In this document: positions 4,164 through 9,060 of the stretch, piece by piece
Position numbering within the stretch: the first letter of the stretch is position 1
Layout: every line of letters begins with the position of its first letter
NCBI GenBank assembly: GCA_012035435.1
Contig: JAAUPH010000079.1
Location: 1-9,060 of the forward strand
DNA from: Sphingopyxis sp.
GTDB taxonomy: Bacteria > Pseudomonadota > Alphaproteobacteria > Sphingomonadales > Sphingomonadaceae
Length of the DNA stretch: 9,060 bases
Reading direction: 5' to 3'
Made by a program: the position numbers and the translations under genes
The notes under the pieces: generated by a model
The model's database searches: none
The model's input: only the letters and a program-made list of their open reading frames with translations
Told to the model about the DNA's origin: nothing

Positions 4164-4981
4164 GTGGCCGTATCGGGCATCATCACCGTCATGGAACGCG
4201 CCGCGCGCAAGGCGGGGTCAAAGCTGCGCCGCGATTTTGGCGAGATTGAACATCTGCAGGTCTCGCAAAAAGGTCCGGCGGACTTCGTATCGAAGGCCGA
4301 CCAGGCCGCCGAGCGTACGCTGTATGACGAACTCACCTATGCGCGGCCCGGCTGGGGGTTTGTGATGGAAGAGGCCGGCGTGATCGAAGGGGAACCGGGC
4401 AAGCCGCGCTTCATCGTCGATCCGCTCGACGGTACGTCGAACTTCCTTCACGCCATCCCGCATTTCGCGATTTCGATCGCGGTGCAGGAACCTGCGCTCG
4501 GCGGCGGTTGGGGCGATGTGACAGCAGCGCTGGTGTATCAGCCGGTCACCGACGAAAGCTATTGGGCCGAGCGCGGTCGCGGCGCGTGGCTGCATGACCG
4601 GCGCCTGCGCGTCGGCGCGCGGCGACACCTGAACGAATGCCTGGTGGCCACTGGTATCCCCTATATGGCCACGGTGATTTCGCGCAGTGGAGCCGCATTT
4701 TCGGCGCAGTTGCGCCCGAAGTCGCCGGTATCCGCCGCTTTGGTGCCGCGAGCCTCGATCTCGCCTGGGTCGCCGCAGGCCGCTTCGACGGGTTCTGGGA
4801 GAGCGATCTCGCCATCTGGGACGTCGCGGCGGGCATGTTGCTGGTGCGCGAAGCAGGCGGTTTCGTGAGTGACTTTCGCGGCGGGGAGCGCGCGATCGAG
4901 CGCAGCGAATATCTCGCGGGTAGCGCCGCGGTGCACAGCAAGCTGCAAAAGCTGGTCGCGGGGGCGCTCAGGGGGAGCTGA
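4164..4981 (+). CDS. suhB: Inositol monophosphatase / SuhB family protein, interrupted by a one-base deletion
   Basis: Magnesium-dependent phosphatase fold; E. coli SuhB hydrolyses inositol phosphate and also acts with NusA in rRNA transcription. The start is GTG at 4164, with TAAGG nine bases upstream and 11 bases after the efp stop. Motifs in the first frame: MEEAG with E69/E70 for the metal, and VDPLDGTSNFLH with metal-binding D86 and D89. After VATGIPYM (about residue 168) the frame loses similarity. The family sequence resumes one frame over as GHGDFAQWSRIFGAVAPEV, then WDVAAGMLLVREAGGF with the third metal-site aspartate, ending at the TGA at 4979-4981. Adding one G at the GG of 4667-4668 restores a normal 272-residue protein. 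As written, the first frame would end at 4868 with a scrambled tail lacking the WD.AAG motif. A sequencing error in a short G run is the simplest explanation; a true pseudogene cannot be excluded. Confidence 0.88.
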
Positions 4982-5020: not shown

Positions 5021-5500
5021 TTAGTCGCCGTGGATATGTTTCTGAAAGGCGGTCATCAGCGCTTTCCAAGTGTTGACAGCCTCGCCGACATTTTCACGCG
5101 GTATGCCGTTAAAGTCGAGGTCGACGTCCATCTCAAGCACCGGATCGCCGCTATCGTCGCGATACGCCCGGGCAAAACGCTTATTTTCGTTCCAATCATT
5201 AAGCGTTTCGAGCGTGGTCTTTTTGGCGTCATTGAAGCCCATGTAAAATTGCAAAGTCGAACAATTGCGGTCGTCGTCATCTCAATTCATGAACAGTACC
5301 AGAAATTTGAGGCCGCTGTGCTTGCTCTCCAGATAGTTTGCGCTCTCGCCGCCATCTTTCAATTCTGTGGGCAGGCCTTGGCCTTCCAATATTTGCTTGA
5401 TGACCGTCGGATCTTTTGCGCCAACTAGCTCCGCCTGTGCCGGAGCGGCTGTCATTGCCGCTAGTGCCAGCGTTGCACCGCCAAACCATTTTAGAACCAT
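5021..5500 (-). pseudogene. Secreted YbjN-domain protein, interrupted by an in-frame TGA
   Basis: YbjN-like proteins are small and poorly understood (the family is called a putative sensory transduction regulator); this one is predicted to be periplasmic. On the minus strand an ATG at 5500-5498 follows a strong GGAGG ribosome binding site seven bases away. Residues 1-23 form a signal peptide (MVLKWFGG, Ala-rich core, cleavage after AQA). The frame reads KFLVLFMN, then TGA at 5284-5282 (codon 73), then in the same frame DDDDRNC, TLQFYMGF, LNDWNENKRFARAY and DPVLEMDVDLDFNG to a TAA at 5023-5021. Ignoring the TGA gives a continuous 159-residue protein of normal family length. In homologues as I recall them a cysteine occupies the codon-73 position, paired with a second one at the position of C80. 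TGA is one base from TGC/TGT, so this is a recent nonsense change, a base-call error or, much less likely, selenocysteine. The half after the stop is well preserved. Confidence 0.75.
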
Positions 5501-6070: not shown

Positions 6071-6636
6071 GCAGCTCGATCATCCTCCCGCCGGGTTCCA
6101 CCCTGCCGCCAGCCATGCCAGTTGCGCCGGGCACCGCGCCCGACGCTGACTTTTACAACGACTTGACCGGCGAAGTCGGGGACAAGGGCTTTCTCGTCAC
6201 CTCGACTGAGGATTTGTTCGCCTGGGCGCGCACCGGTTCGCTGTGGTGGATGACCTTTGGCTTGGCCTGCTGCGCGGTCGAGATGATTCACGTCAACATG
6301 CCGCGCTATGACATGGAGCGCTTTGGCGTGGCCCCGCGTGCGTCTCCCCGCCAATCGGATGTGATGATCGTCGCGGGCACGCTGTGCAACAAAATGGCCC
6401 CCGCACTACGCCGCGTCTATGACCAGATGTCGAACCCCAAATATGTAATTTCGATGGGTAGCTGCGCCAATGGCGGCGGTTATTATCATTACAGCTATTC
6501 GGTCGTGCGCGGCTGTGACCGGATCGTGCCGGTAGACATTTATGTTCCCGGCTGCCCACCGACTGCCGAGGCTTTGCTCTATGGCGTGATGCAATTGCAG
6601 CGCAAAATCCGCCGCATGGGGACGATTGAGCGATGA
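6067..6636 (+). CDS. nuoB: NADH-quinone oxidoreductase subunit B
   Basis: Peripheral-arm subunit (PSST homologue) that holds iron-sulfur cluster N2, the direct electron donor to quinone. The 189-residue protein has the four N2 cysteines: tandem C68-C69 in LACCAVEM, C133 in GSCANGGG and C163 in [11 protein letters not shown]. About 40 N-terminal residues rich in proline and alanine ([15 protein letters not shown]) precede the conserved core, and vary between species. The ATG overlaps the nuoA stop by four bases, and its own stop overlaps nuoC by four. The frame is open upstream to 5986, but that stretch lies inside nuoA and is not family-like. Intact. Confidence 0.97.
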
Positions 6637-7466
6637 GCCACGCCGCCCCCGTCATCGCGCCGCGCAAAGATTTGGCGAAGGAGCTGAAATCGGTTCTGGG
6701 TAAGGATATGCTGGCGCATGTCTTCGCCAACGACGAAGACAGCGTCGATGTCAAACGCGACGCTGTCGATGCTGTGATGATCGCGCTGCGCGACCGCATG
6801 GACTATCAACAGCTGATGGAAATTGCAGGGGTCGATTATCCTGACCGCGCTGAGCGGTTTGAGGTCGTCTATCACCTCCTCAGCGTCACCCGAAACCACC
6901 GCCTGCGCGTCCGTGTGTCAGCGAGCGAGGCGACGCCGGTGCCAAGCATTACAGGTGTCTGGCCCAACGCGGGCTGGCTCGAGCGCGAAGTGTTCGACAT
7001 GTACGGCGTGCTATTCAGCGGTAACACCGACCTGCGCCGTATCCTCACCGACTATGGTTTTGAAGGCCATCCGTTCCGCAAGGATTTCCCGCTGACCGGC
7101 TATGTCGAGATGCGCTATTCCGAAGAACAGAAGCGCGTGGTCTATGAGCCGGTGAAGCTGGCGCAGGATTTCCGCAGCTTCGATTTCCTCTCGCCTTGGG
7201 AAGGCGCCGATTATGTGCTGCCCGGCGATGAAAAAGCGGGCGGGACAGGCGAAGCGGCGGGCAAGGGCGCTCCGACCCCGCAAACGGCCGATGCCGCGCG
7301 CAAGGACACCGCGCCCGTCAAAGCGCCGCCGCCGCCCAAGCCCAAGGTCACTGAATCAACCGCCGATACTGGCGCAGGTGCCGCGGCTAATAAGGCTGCG
7401 ACCAAGCGCAGTGCGGGCACCGCCAAACCCCGCGCCCCCCGTAAGCCGAAGGGGTCGGGGGAATGA
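6633..7466 (+). CDS. nuoC: NADH-quinone oxidoreductase subunit C with a long Ala/Pro/Lys-rich tail
   Basis: Peripheral-arm 30-kDa-type subunit that packs against NuoD and NuoB. It is 277 residues: a conserved core to about residue 198 and then a tail of about 79 residues. The family signature appears as [36 protein letters not shown] and [22 protein letters not shown]. The tail (after [10 protein letters not shown]) is low-complexity, rich in Ala, Pro, Lys, Thr and Gly, with a run of four prolines (PPPPKPK) and a strongly basic end ([13 protein letters not shown]). Tails of this type are, as I recall, common in sphingomonad NuoC proteins; they are absent from many other bacterial NuoC. The downstream EF-P target potential is notable, since the proline run is the kind of motif EF-P assists. 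The start overlaps the nuoB stop as ATGA (6633-6636). No repeats or frameshift seen. Confidence 0.95.
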
Positions 7467-7519
7467 CGAAGGATTATATTCCGGCCATGGCGAAGTTTGA
7501 GAAGGGAGTATCGGCATGA
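7463..7519 (+). CDS. Possible 18-codon coupling ORF between nuoC and nuoD
   Basis: The frame [18 protein letters not shown] starts in the ATGA that holds the nuoC stop (7463-7466) and stops in the ATGA that holds the nuoD start (7516-7519). It would thus carry ribosomes without a gap from nuoC to nuoD. G-rich bases upstream (7449-7461) give a poor ribosome binding site, while nuoD has its own good one (GGGAG at 7504-7508, seven bases before ATG). The product resembles nothing I know. It may be chance, since only 18 stop-free codons are needed, or a coupling device with no functional peptide. Confidence 0.3.
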
Positions 7520-8772
7520 CCGAAACCCAGACCATTAAACACCACGGCAGCGACATGTTCGACGGCTATCCGGTCGACACCGCCAACACGCCCGGCGATC
7601 AGGAAGTCACCAACTACACGATCAACTTCGGCCCTCAGCATCCTGCGGCGCACGGCGTGCTGCGGATGATCCTGGAGCTCGACGGCGAGATTATCGAGCG
7701 GGTAGACCCGCATGTCGGGCTGCTCCATCGCGGCACCGAAAAGCTGATCGAATACAAGACATATTTGCAGGCGCTGCCCTATTTCGACCGGCTCGATTAT
7801 TGCTCGCCGCTGGGCATGGAGCATAGCTATGTGCTCGCCATCGAAAAGCTGCTGAACCTGGAGGTGCCGGCGCGCGCACAATATCTCCGCACGATGTTTG
7901 CTGAGCTGACGCGCATTTGCAACCATATGCTTAACATCGGCAGCCATGTGATGGACGTCGGCGCGATGACGCCGAACCTGTGGATTTTTGAGCTGCGTGA
8001 GGATTGCCTCAACTTCTTTGAACGCGCGTCGGGCGCGCGGATGCACTGTGCCTACTACCGCCCCGGCGGCGTGCACCAGGACGTGCCGGAGAAGCTGCTC
8101 GTTGACATTGGCGAATGGTGCGAAAAACGCCTGCCCGAACTCTTCGGTGATGCGATGAGCCTGGTGCTCGATAACCGCATCTTCAAACAGCGCAACGTCG
8201 ATATCGCGACCGTCAGCAAGCAGGACGCGCTGGCATGGGGCTTTAGCGGCCCCATGATCCGCGGCAGCGGCATTGCGTGGGATTTGCGCAAGTCGCAGCC
8301 TTATGACGCCTATGCAAAGATGGATTTCGACATCCCCGTCGGCACCCGCGGAGATTGCTATGACCGTTTCAAGGTCCGCGTGGATGAGGTGTATCAATCG
8401 GCGCGGATTATCAAACAATGTCTGCGCGACATGCCGACCGGCCCCATCGCCAGCAACGACCGCAAAGTCGTGCCGCCCAAGCGCGTTGAGATGAAGCAGT
8501 CGATGGAAAGCCTGATCCATCACTTCAAGCTCTATACCGAGGGCTTCCACGTTCCCGCCGGCGAAGTCTATGTCGCCACCGAAAGCCCCAAGGGCGAATT
8601 CGGCGTCTATCTGGTCAGTGACGGCACCAACAAACCCTATCGCTGCAAAATCCGCCCGACGGCGTTCTCGCACCTGCAAGCGATGGACATGATGTGCAAA
8701 GGCCACATGCTGGCCGACACAACCGCGATCATCGGCGCGATCGACGTAGTGTTTGGGGAGTGTGATCGGTGA
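7516..8772 (+). CDS. nuoD: NADH-quinone oxidoreductase subunit D
   Basis: Peripheral-arm 49-kDa-type subunit forming most of the quinone-binding site; related to the large subunit of [NiFe] hydrogenases but without the metal-binding cysteines. The 418-residue protein is full length. Near the start [11 protein letters not shown] provides H46, and RLDYCSPL provides Y95; their 49-residue spacing equals that of the quinone head-group residues His38 and Tyr87 of Thermus Nqo4. Further signatures are [44 protein letters not shown] and the C-terminal end VFGECDR, where GEVDR is commoner. The start is set by GGGAG seven bases before the ATG. It is separate from nuoC, unlike the fused NuoCD of enteric bacteria. 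Its stop overlaps the next small gene by four bases (GTGA, 8769-8772). Intact. Confidence 0.97.
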
Positions 8773-8945
8773 ATAATTTTGGTCTGATTGGACGTGTCTT
8801 GATTGTCATTGGGATGGCCATGACGGTTGCCAAATGGTTTTTTGGCGTTGATGTGATTGAGCGATGGAATCTCATACCGTTGGTTTCAGGTTTGGCGCTG
8901 ACATGGGCGGCCCGATCGCGGTCGAAAGAAGCGCCGAATGGCTGA
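8769..8945 (+). CDS. Small two-helix membrane protein inside the nuo operon, between nuoD and nuoE
   Basis: I do not recognise this 58-residue protein. It starts at GTG in a GTGA overlap with the nuoD stop. A strong GGGGAG ribosome binding site (8755-8760) lies eight bases upstream. It ends at the TGA at 8943-8945, eight bases inside nuoE. Residues about 4-27 ([22 protein letters not shown]) and 34-48 ([15 protein letters not shown]) are hydrophobic and could form two membrane helices with a short polar turn (VDVIERW). The C-terminus is basic then polar ([10 protein letters not shown]). GC is about 50 % by hand count, lower than the surrounding nuo genes, mainly because hydrophobic codons are T-rich. 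Its position and coupling suggest co-production with complex I, perhaps as an accessory subunit or assembly helper; that is inference. No domain family assigned. Confidence 0.72.
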
Positions 8946-9060
8946 CGCACCCACCATCCCCGACGAAGCCGAAGTCCGCGCGCGCTGGGGCGATTTTGCT
9001 TGGACGAGGGCCAATGCGGCGCAGGCCGCGGCCATAATCGCGCGCTACCCCGCCGGGCGG
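8938..9060 (+). CDS. nuoE: NADH-quinone oxidoreductase subunit E, N-terminal part (runs off the window)
   Basis: The 24-kDa-type subunit of the NADH-oxidising module, which carries the [2Fe-2S] cluster N1a. Only the first 41 residues are present ([20 protein letters not shown], then an alanine-rich stretch and IIARYPAGR). The IIARYPAGR segment near residue 33-41 is the start of the conserved NuoE helix region (family I..YP.GR..S). The cluster cysteines lie beyond the window. The ATG sits inside the end of the preceding small ORF, eight bases of overlap, with a weak purine-rich stretch (GAAAGAAG) about seven bases upstream. Gene order after nuoD supports the assignment. Confidence 0.88.
   Translation, partial: MADAPTIPDEAEVRARWGDFAWTRANAAQAAAIIARYPAGR

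Follow-up and report, generated by a model that had tools for sequence, protein, structure and literature searches.

A reading frame of 58 codons lies between nuoD and nuoE, inside the operon for complex I, and its position raises the question of whether it is a gene at all and, if so, whether its product belongs to complex I or only shares the operon. The stretch analysed, referred to here as the window, comprises 9,060 bases from a Sphingopyxis-like bacterium and carries nuoA, nuoB, nuoC, nuoD and the start of nuoE. The closest NuoD relatives (loci L001-L011) are 92-95% identical, and all of them belong to Sphingopyxis. The features that frame the question are the following.

7516..8772, plus strand: nuoD (Complex1_49kDa), from Pfam PF00346 (E 3.3e-118) and sequence
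8722..8769, plus strand: last 48 nt of nuoD sense sequence, a candidate recombination arm with synonymous codons that differ between empty and filled Sphingopyxis junctions
8755..8760, plus strand: GGGGAG, Shine-Dalgarno-like, within nuoD and 8 nt before the GTG, from sequence and the codon-5 pattern in Sphingopyxis junctions
8769..8945, plus strand: 58-codon ORF, a predicted small membrane protein and putative slot cargo, from sequence, a homologue at E 2.8e-14 and dN/dS 0.39
8775..8843, plus strand: first hydrophobic helix, residues 3-25, from hydrophobicity and AlphaFold2
8871..8927, plus strand: second predicted helix, residues 35-53, weaker, from AlphaFold2 and below the hydrophobicity cut-off
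8938..8945, plus strand: ATGGCTGA, the 8-nt overlap of the nuoE start codon and the ORF stop codon, shared by 39 of the 60 Sphingopyxis inserts above 60 nt
8938..9060, plus strand: 5' part of nuoE, continuing past the window end, from alignment to relatives' NuoE

NuoC and NuoA were assigned through Pfam (PF00329 and PF00507, respectively), nuoB was named by its place and by similarity, and the relatives' NuoE reference protein belongs to PF01257; the reference names from nuoE to nuoN were given by gene order and then confirmed with Pfam. A scan of the window against Rfam returned no family at the gathering threshold. NuoC (6633-7466) ends in a long C-terminal tail rich in alanine, proline and lysine, its Pfam domain stopping at residue 157 of 277. 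At 18-1705, an aldo/keto reductase ORF (Pfam profile positions 2-289 of 291, to residue 318) continues into phosphoglycerate kinase DNA that matches profile positions 185-379 only, the N-terminal half being absent here; this junction is either a rearrangement or an assembly chimera. The inositol monophosphatase gene (4164-4981) has a partial Pfam match (5-166 of 271) and, by eye, seems to be continued in another frame, and the YbjN-like gene on the minus strand (5021-5254) is also matched in part (52-125 of 126). Indel errors in the contig are possible, and the ORF at 8769-8945 is not visibly affected.

Structure and coding status of the 58-codon reading frame

The frame is fitted closely to both neighbours. 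The final nuoD codon, CGG, and the stop TGA (8770-8772) furnish its GTG start (8769-8771) in a GTGA overlap, and after 58 sense codons it ends at TGA 8943-8945, across the nuoE ATG at 8938-8940. The preliminary description of this DNA had named the GTGA overlap, the GGGGAG eight nucleotides upstream and the stop overlapping the nuoE start, and all of these are read directly in the sequence. It had also counted two hydrophobic segments. The first one passes the cut-off for a TM-like segment, with a best 19-residue Kyte-Doolittle mean of 1.79 that 5% of 200 dinucleotide shuffles reach; the second falls below the same cut-off and appears as a helix in the AlphaFold2 model only. That model places helices at residues 3-25, 27-30 and 35-53 with a mean pLDDT of 67, and the predicted helical hairpin is of modest reliability.

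Openness of the frame is weak evidence for coding, since about 0.10 of dinucleotide shuffles of the spacer are open as long. A single-sequence search of 5.8 billion proteins returned the window's own protein as the only match. The same junction of L185 (genome G077, divergent, of the Sphingopyxis group) encodes a protein of equal length with 49% identity over residues 8-58 (E 2.8e-14). For this pair, Nei-Gojobori counts gave pS 0.64, pN 0.40, dS 1.44 and dN/dS 0.39, the rate of non-synonymous change being lower than the synonymous one (Fisher p 0.0096, from fractional counts); the differences by codon position (23/20/33) did not reach significance (p 0.16). A third relative, from the same junction of Sphingopyxis sp. 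HIX (L001/L111), is 30% identical and falls into the same cluster as the window ORF, membership being set by blastp at E 1e-4 or better within a set of 449 ORFs; dN/dS between the window and L111 is 0.54, with dS near saturation. A profile search with the three sequences added two more protein clusters, P0003 and P0004, which are the L185 and L001/L111 alleles with later starts. Beyond L185, the 80 Sphingopyxis genomes gave no other clear match, and the next one (E 0.037) contains a stop and was taken as chance. The ORF matched no Pfam or NCBIfam family up to E 1, the phage search gave no match up to E 0.1, and matches in the plasmid search were limited to part of the nuoD/nuoE region in one 880-kb Sphingomonas record.

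A chance open frame in non-coding spacer would be compatible with the roughly 10% of shuffles that are open as long and with the non-significant codon-position test, but it leaves the same-length, 49% identical homologue (E 2.8e-14), the dN/dS of 0.39 with its Fisher p of 0.0096 and the openness of frames across the slot as a whole without explanation, and is regarded as highly improbable. The ORF is judged real because of the same-length homologue at the same junction and the lower non-synonymous rate, not because of the open frame alone, and with moderate confidence it is probably a genuine gene. In these respects the preliminary description of a coupled, small, membrane-type ORF, probably coding and scarcely represented in protein collections, is upheld, and the dN/dS below 1 that it proposed as a check is seen with L185. 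The small ORF conserved across relatives that it proposed to test for was not found: a clear homologue exists in one of the 80 Sphingopyxis genomes, and a second relative (L001/L111) falls in the same cluster.

Content and anatomy of the nuoD-nuoE junction

The Sphingopyxis sample held one genome per species, 77 of 80 with a NuoD match and three without. nuoD is followed by nuoE in all 77 of these genomes and in 67 of 68 other loci, L057 ending before nuoE. Among the 77 Sphingopyxis species, the junction has no insert in 15, an insert of 45 nt (18 codons) in two and one of more than 60 nt in 60, and a spacing above 60 nt is found in 45 of the 67 loci from other Sphingomonadales. At the level of the class, 40 of 116 genomes with a NuoD match were placed outside Sphingomonadales from a NuoD identity of 60-70%; here nuoD and nuoE overlap by 4 nt in 35, stand 32 nt apart in one and are more than 60 nt apart in four. 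Sphingopyxis holds 32 distinct junction contents, the window counted. Homologous genomes with no open frame at this place, which the preliminary description had named as grounds against the gene, do occur, in 15 of the 77 Sphingopyxis species.

The inserts share a common architecture and abut the flanking coding sequence directly. In all 106 inserts longer than 60 nt (105 from relatives and the window), the start codon of the first ORF overlaps the nuoD stop, as GTGA in 95, TTGA in six, ATGA in two and TAATG in three. Among the relatives, the final sense codon of nuoD is CGG at 97 of the 107 junctions that have an insert of any length and at 1 of the 37 empty ones. An open frame spans 90% or more of the insert in 56 of 60 Sphingopyxis and 35 of 45 other cases, against 7.0 and 6.3 inserts, respectively, that shuffles predict to be as open as observed; the 14 inserts that are open for less than 90% all have another ORF after the first. 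In Sphingopyxis, inserts end most often on the 8-nt ATGGCTGA overlap with nuoE (39 of 60, plus the window); among inserts of other Sphingomonadales, 11 of 45 do so, fewer than the 19 of 45 that have a 1-nt overlap. The 8-nt overlap thus ends 51 of the 106 inserts, window counted.

The encoded proteins are mostly unrelated. They include small proteins with one or two TM segments and signal-peptide-like, SnoaL-like, cupin and short coiled-coil-like proteins; three species have a dispersed palindromic repeat at this place. Except for SnoaL and cupin, these labels were assigned by eye from the sequences. The 449 ORFs from all junctions longer than 60 nt fell into 150 clusters, 107 of them singletons, with a clustering rule (blastp E 1e-4, half length) that may split fast-evolving homologues and so inflate turnover. 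A TM-like segment is present in 40 of 54 non-SnoaL Sphingopyxis inserts and in 21 of 31 elsewhere, and the hydrophobic segments beat their own shuffles at 5% in 32 of the 54. Representative inserts were scanned as first ORFs only, for 53 of 57 cluster representatives (L173, L014, L060 and L078 omitted). Strong Pfam matches among these 53 were limited to SnoaL-like and cupin domains, with weaker single matches down to E 1.2e-4, the value of a Gram-positive anchor match in one insert. One match to the MNLL complex I subunit (E 0.0043) lies at about chance level for 53 scans and was treated as such rather than as a complex I domain; its owner was not among the 20 of 53 inserts rescanned individually. 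None of the 53 matched PADLOC-DB at E up to 0.01, and a role as anti-phage defence cargo was set aside on that account.

Selection on the inserts was gauged by NG86 on 30 hand-chosen same-family pairs, several of which are near synonymous saturation. dN/dS was 0.02-0.31 in 18 pairs, 0.39-0.93 in eight and undefined in four. The middle group consists of window-L185 (0.39), window-L111 (0.54), the c11 pairs L131/L143 (0.78) and L131/L166 (0.67), both with few underlying changes, L165/L177 (0.87) and the repeat trio (0.68-0.93). The third codon position holds most of the differences in all 10 non-repeat pairs tested. The repeat itself, 129 nt long, fills the slot in frame in L148, L169 and L178 (HAELVSAS...GPWTLKQVQGD), of which L148 and L169 are the same places as L007 and L011. 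With both strands counted, the repeat has 6 matches in the L148 genome, 74 in that of L169 and 78 in that of L178, and related repeats are present in the nuoE-nuoF, nuoF-nuoG and nuoC-nuoD junctions. The trio shows no third-position excess, and in one genome 13 of 29 other copies examined are open when read in the frame of the slot, so three open repeats out of three, with a probability of about 9%, are only mildly suggestive. From the junctions that contain the repeat, it seems that the slot can tolerate a sequence that is simply open in frame.

Inserts longer than 60 nt are unevenly distributed over the Sphingopyxis operon, with counts of 0/75 at nuoA-nuoB, 2/75 at nuoB-nuoC, 3/77 at nuoC-nuoD, 3/69 at nuoK-nuoL, 1/67 at nuoL-nuoM and 0/65 at nuoM-nuoN, of 6/70 at nuoI-nuoJ and 14/69 at nuoJ-nuoK, and of 50/75 at nuoE-nuoF, 49/73 at nuoF-nuoG, 59/71 at nuoG-nuoH and 21/70 at nuoH-nuoI. 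The other loci gave 0/67, 5/68 and 12/68 at the first three junctions. Variable accessory ORFs are seen at the four junctions from nuoE to nuoI too (L111-L186), with a nuoF-nuoG family of 57 members and a nuoG-nuoH family of 42 members, the former counted over all loci, and 17 contents among the 21 filled nuoH-nuoI junctions. On the nuoA-D tree, some signal is kept at nuoE-nuoF (34 changes versus 44.4 shuffled), nuoF-nuoG (35 versus 40.5) and nuoG-nuoH (25 versus 34.6), and none is detected at nuoH-nuoI (21 versus 21.0).

Control loci were drawn from other operons. In 30 atp loci (of 74 genomes with atpA), atpH-atpA measured 3-41 nt and atpA-atpG 46-124 nt; in 30 murD loci (of 77 genomes with murD), mraY-murD was constant and murD-ftsW about 134 nt longer in four, the reference locus included. 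The sdhA control (30 of 76) was not clean, sdhB not being located by homology and the region behind sdhA being variable. In five of these 30 loci (L220, L222, L223, L239 and L244), ORFs of 116-220 aa begin on or overlap the sdhA stop, like those of the nuo slot. The central part of the nuo operon thus has several such slots, of which nuoD-nuoE is one, and others possibly exist elsewhere.

Turnover and probable exchange at the junction

Within Sphingopyxis, the content of the slot is without phylogenetic signal. It needs 56 changes on a nuoA-D tree of 78 tips, versus 58.9 when shuffled (minimum of 200 shuffles, 55), and 49 versus 49.8 on a nuoL-N tree of 65 tips, which took in 65 of the 77 Sphingopyxis; on the latter, the empty or filled state alone needs 13 changes versus 12.9. 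Content labels differ in 22 of 28 sister pairs on the first tree and in 20 of 22 on the second, any mismatch of labels being scored as a difference (L120/L147, scored in this way, have one ORF in common).

Individual pairs indicate how this may come about. The sisters L139 and L156 are 99-100% identical in nuoA-C and nuoL-N and carry inserts from different clusters, of 81 aa and 61 aa, respectively. Their nuoD declines from 100% identity at the 5' end to 90% at the 3' end, nuoE is 83-100% and nuoF 87-100% identical by 100-nt window, and nuoG is 95% identical. In L143 and L166, the inserts are 99% identical with a dS of 0, compared with a nuoD dS of 0.33 and flank windows of 80-97%. In L120/L124, the synonymous divergence of the insert exceeds that of nuoD, as it does in some other same-family pairs, and these are not recent exchanges. 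Exchange is inferred between species, from one genome per species.

The flanks carry a further record. Haplotypes were compared in 71 of the 77 Sphingopyxis, after removal of the six rows L181-L186, which are divergent or sit on long branches. At p<0.001, the empty or filled state is associated with nine third positions of nuoD, each of which lies within the final 16 codons (lowest p 1.7e-14). Between codons 21 and 299, where 252 third positions vary, there is no association at that level, and in nuoE only codons 2 and 5 are associated. Counted from the end of nuoD, the fifth codon reads GGG in 55 of 56 filled junctions and GGA in all 15 empty ones, and nuoE codon 2 is GCT in 50 of 56 filled and 1 of 15 empty. 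The GCT codon is no general requirement, because the pattern fails outside Sphingopyxis, where 15 of 22 empty junctions have it. Over the 48 nt, empty junctions show 96.2% identity to one another, versus 90.5% for the background and 82.9% between empty and filled; in other genera, empty junctions have different codons. Repeated convergence accounts less well for this shared empty haplotype than an exchangeable allele does, though selection on initiation regions may contribute. Flank identity is similar in same-family pairs (0.933) and different-insert pairs (0.931), which indicates that a given insert does not bring its own flanks and that the filled flank is a common property. The junction displays three marks of a hotspot of horizontal gene transfer between core genes: the same two core genes flank the interval, its content turns over strongly, and recombination at the flanking genes is indicated by the L139/L156 tract, the L143/L166 insert and the codon haplotypes, as judged without a formal recombination program.

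Interpretation and relation to known systems

The reading favoured here, with a probability of about 0.75, is that the ORF, a true gene for a small membrane protein, currently occupies an exchangeable cassette slot at the Sphingomonadales nuoD-nuoE junction. Homologous recombination within nuoD and nuoE, needing no dedicated integrase, would move cassettes from one species to another, and the arms would bring the ribosome-binding site, the GTGA start and often the ATGGCTGA stop. Because the arms carry the translation signals, in-frame open DNA would be expressed at once and its ribosomes passed on to nuoE. The encoded protein would most likely have a membrane function of its own and ride in the operon as a passenger, co-expressed with complex I and not part of it. 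The window ORF is most likely such a membrane protein, using the complex I operon for expression. A more far-reaching proposal, tentative and rather doubtful, is that selection in Sphingomonadales has kept nuoD-nuoE as a dedicated plug-in slot that works without an integrase. The nuoD 3' and nuoE 5' ends would then be universal arms for recombination and would also supply the signals for translation (GGGGAG, GTGA and ATGGCTGA). If true, the slot would be a platform for cassette exchange and gene birth in a core operon, where foreign genes and even open repeat DNA are expressed at once.

The preliminary description had considered a lineage-specific accessory subunit or assembly factor, which would bind the arm built by the neighbouring gene products. 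The tight coupling of the ORF among peripheral-arm genes and the TM-like segments in most non-SnoaL inserts (40/54 in Sphingopyxis, 21/31 elsewhere) agree with this, as does the existence of a lineage-specific extra subunit, PIMT, in Paracoccus complex I, according to PMC11522691. The survey points the other way: of the 77 Sphingopyxis species, 15 have no insert and two have just 18 codons, the distinct contents number 32 and include SnoaL, cupin and the repeat, and in most of the remaining species the junction encodes proteins of other clusters. Neither conserved presence in the lineage (a clear homologue in 1 of 80, empty junctions in 15 of 77) nor a known domain was found, the window ORF matching no Pfam family up to E 1, and an accessory role is quite unlikely. 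It is also unlikely that the frame is a linker whose amino acids are irrelevant and which merely carries ribosomes from nuoD to nuoE. Frames open far above expectation would be consistent with such a linker, and so would the repeat-derived insert, open in three species at dN/dS 0.68-0.93 versus 13 of 29 other copies open. Three open repeats nevertheless have a probability of about 9% at that rate, and dN/dS of 0.02-0.31 in 18 of the 30 chosen pairs, the third-position majority in the 10 non-repeat pairs and hydrophobic segments exceeding shuffles in 32 of 54 all weigh against irrelevant amino acids.

Two further explanations dispense with exchange. Turnover might be only apparent if all inserts descended from one ancient, extremely fast-evolving orthologous small membrane protein, as the many inserts of 54-102 aa with one or two TM-like segments and the alignment of some distant pairs (window-L001, 30%) might suggest. 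This is already largely refuted by sister pairs that have near-identical nuoL-N and differ in cluster and length (L139, 81 aa; L156, 61 aa); empty junctions, SnoaL, cupin and the repeat do not fit it, one family is almost unchanged in distant species (L143/L166), and the probability left to it is slight. Alternatively, the empty and filled haplotypes could reflect selection on codons near the start, with inserts gained and lost vertically. The associated codons do lie near the start site, including the GGGGAG region, and a start on the nuoD stop is needed by filled junctions and not by empty ones, but the Sphingopyxis empty haplotype is nearly fixed in scattered species (96.2%, with a background of 90.5%), and the codons at empty junctions are different in other genera. 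Vertical descent also sits poorly with an insert dS of 0 beside a nuoD dS of 0.33 (L143/L166) and with a diverged tract between near-identical operon ends (L139/L156), and it is very unlikely to be the whole account.

On the favoured reading, that of an exchangeable cassette slot, a junction in the middle of a core-enzyme operon turns over without phylogenetic signal while nuoA-nuoB, nuoB-nuoC, nuoC-nuoD, nuoK-nuoL, nuoL-nuoM and nuoM-nuoN stay tight in Sphingopyxis. This offers a naturally replicated system for gene capture into operons and for flanking coding sequence acting as expression and recombination arms. The slot also bears on how dispensable small membrane proteins gain functions and on the dependence of nuoE translation on the preceding sequence, and it cautions that a position in the nuo operon is no proof of a function in complex I.

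Full-text literature searches found no description of the nuoD-nuoE slot or of exchange at it, and several known systems resemble it in part. The Paracoccus nqo and Rhodobacter nuo clusters contain unidentified reading frames, each set described in one organism; like the slot, they are extra ORFs between complex I genes. Integron gene cassettes are interchangeable small ORFs behind ready-made expression signals, which is also true of the slot inserts, although the flanks of the slot are ordinary coding sequence. Alphaproteobacterial complex I has accessory (supernumerary) subunits, namely NDUFS4, NDUFS6, NDUFA12 and PIMT in Paracoccus, as set out in PMC11522691 and PMC8115037. These share with the slot proteins the status of extra proteins linked to alphaproteobacterial complex I; the Paracoccus subunits are bound to the enzyme, whereas the slot occupants, predicted from their genes, vary by species. 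The closest parallel is with the hotspots of horizontal gene transfer described in 2017 (PMC5635113), which have conserved core-gene flanks, high turnover and signs of recombination in the flanks, as the nuo slot does; as in those hotspots, no mobile element was recognised in the slot inserts looked at. According to the same paper, new genes rarely integrate inside operons and enter at their edges. The nuo slot differs in lying inside an operon, in holding usually one or two small ORFs, and in having inserts whose start, and often whose stop, overlaps the core genes on either side.
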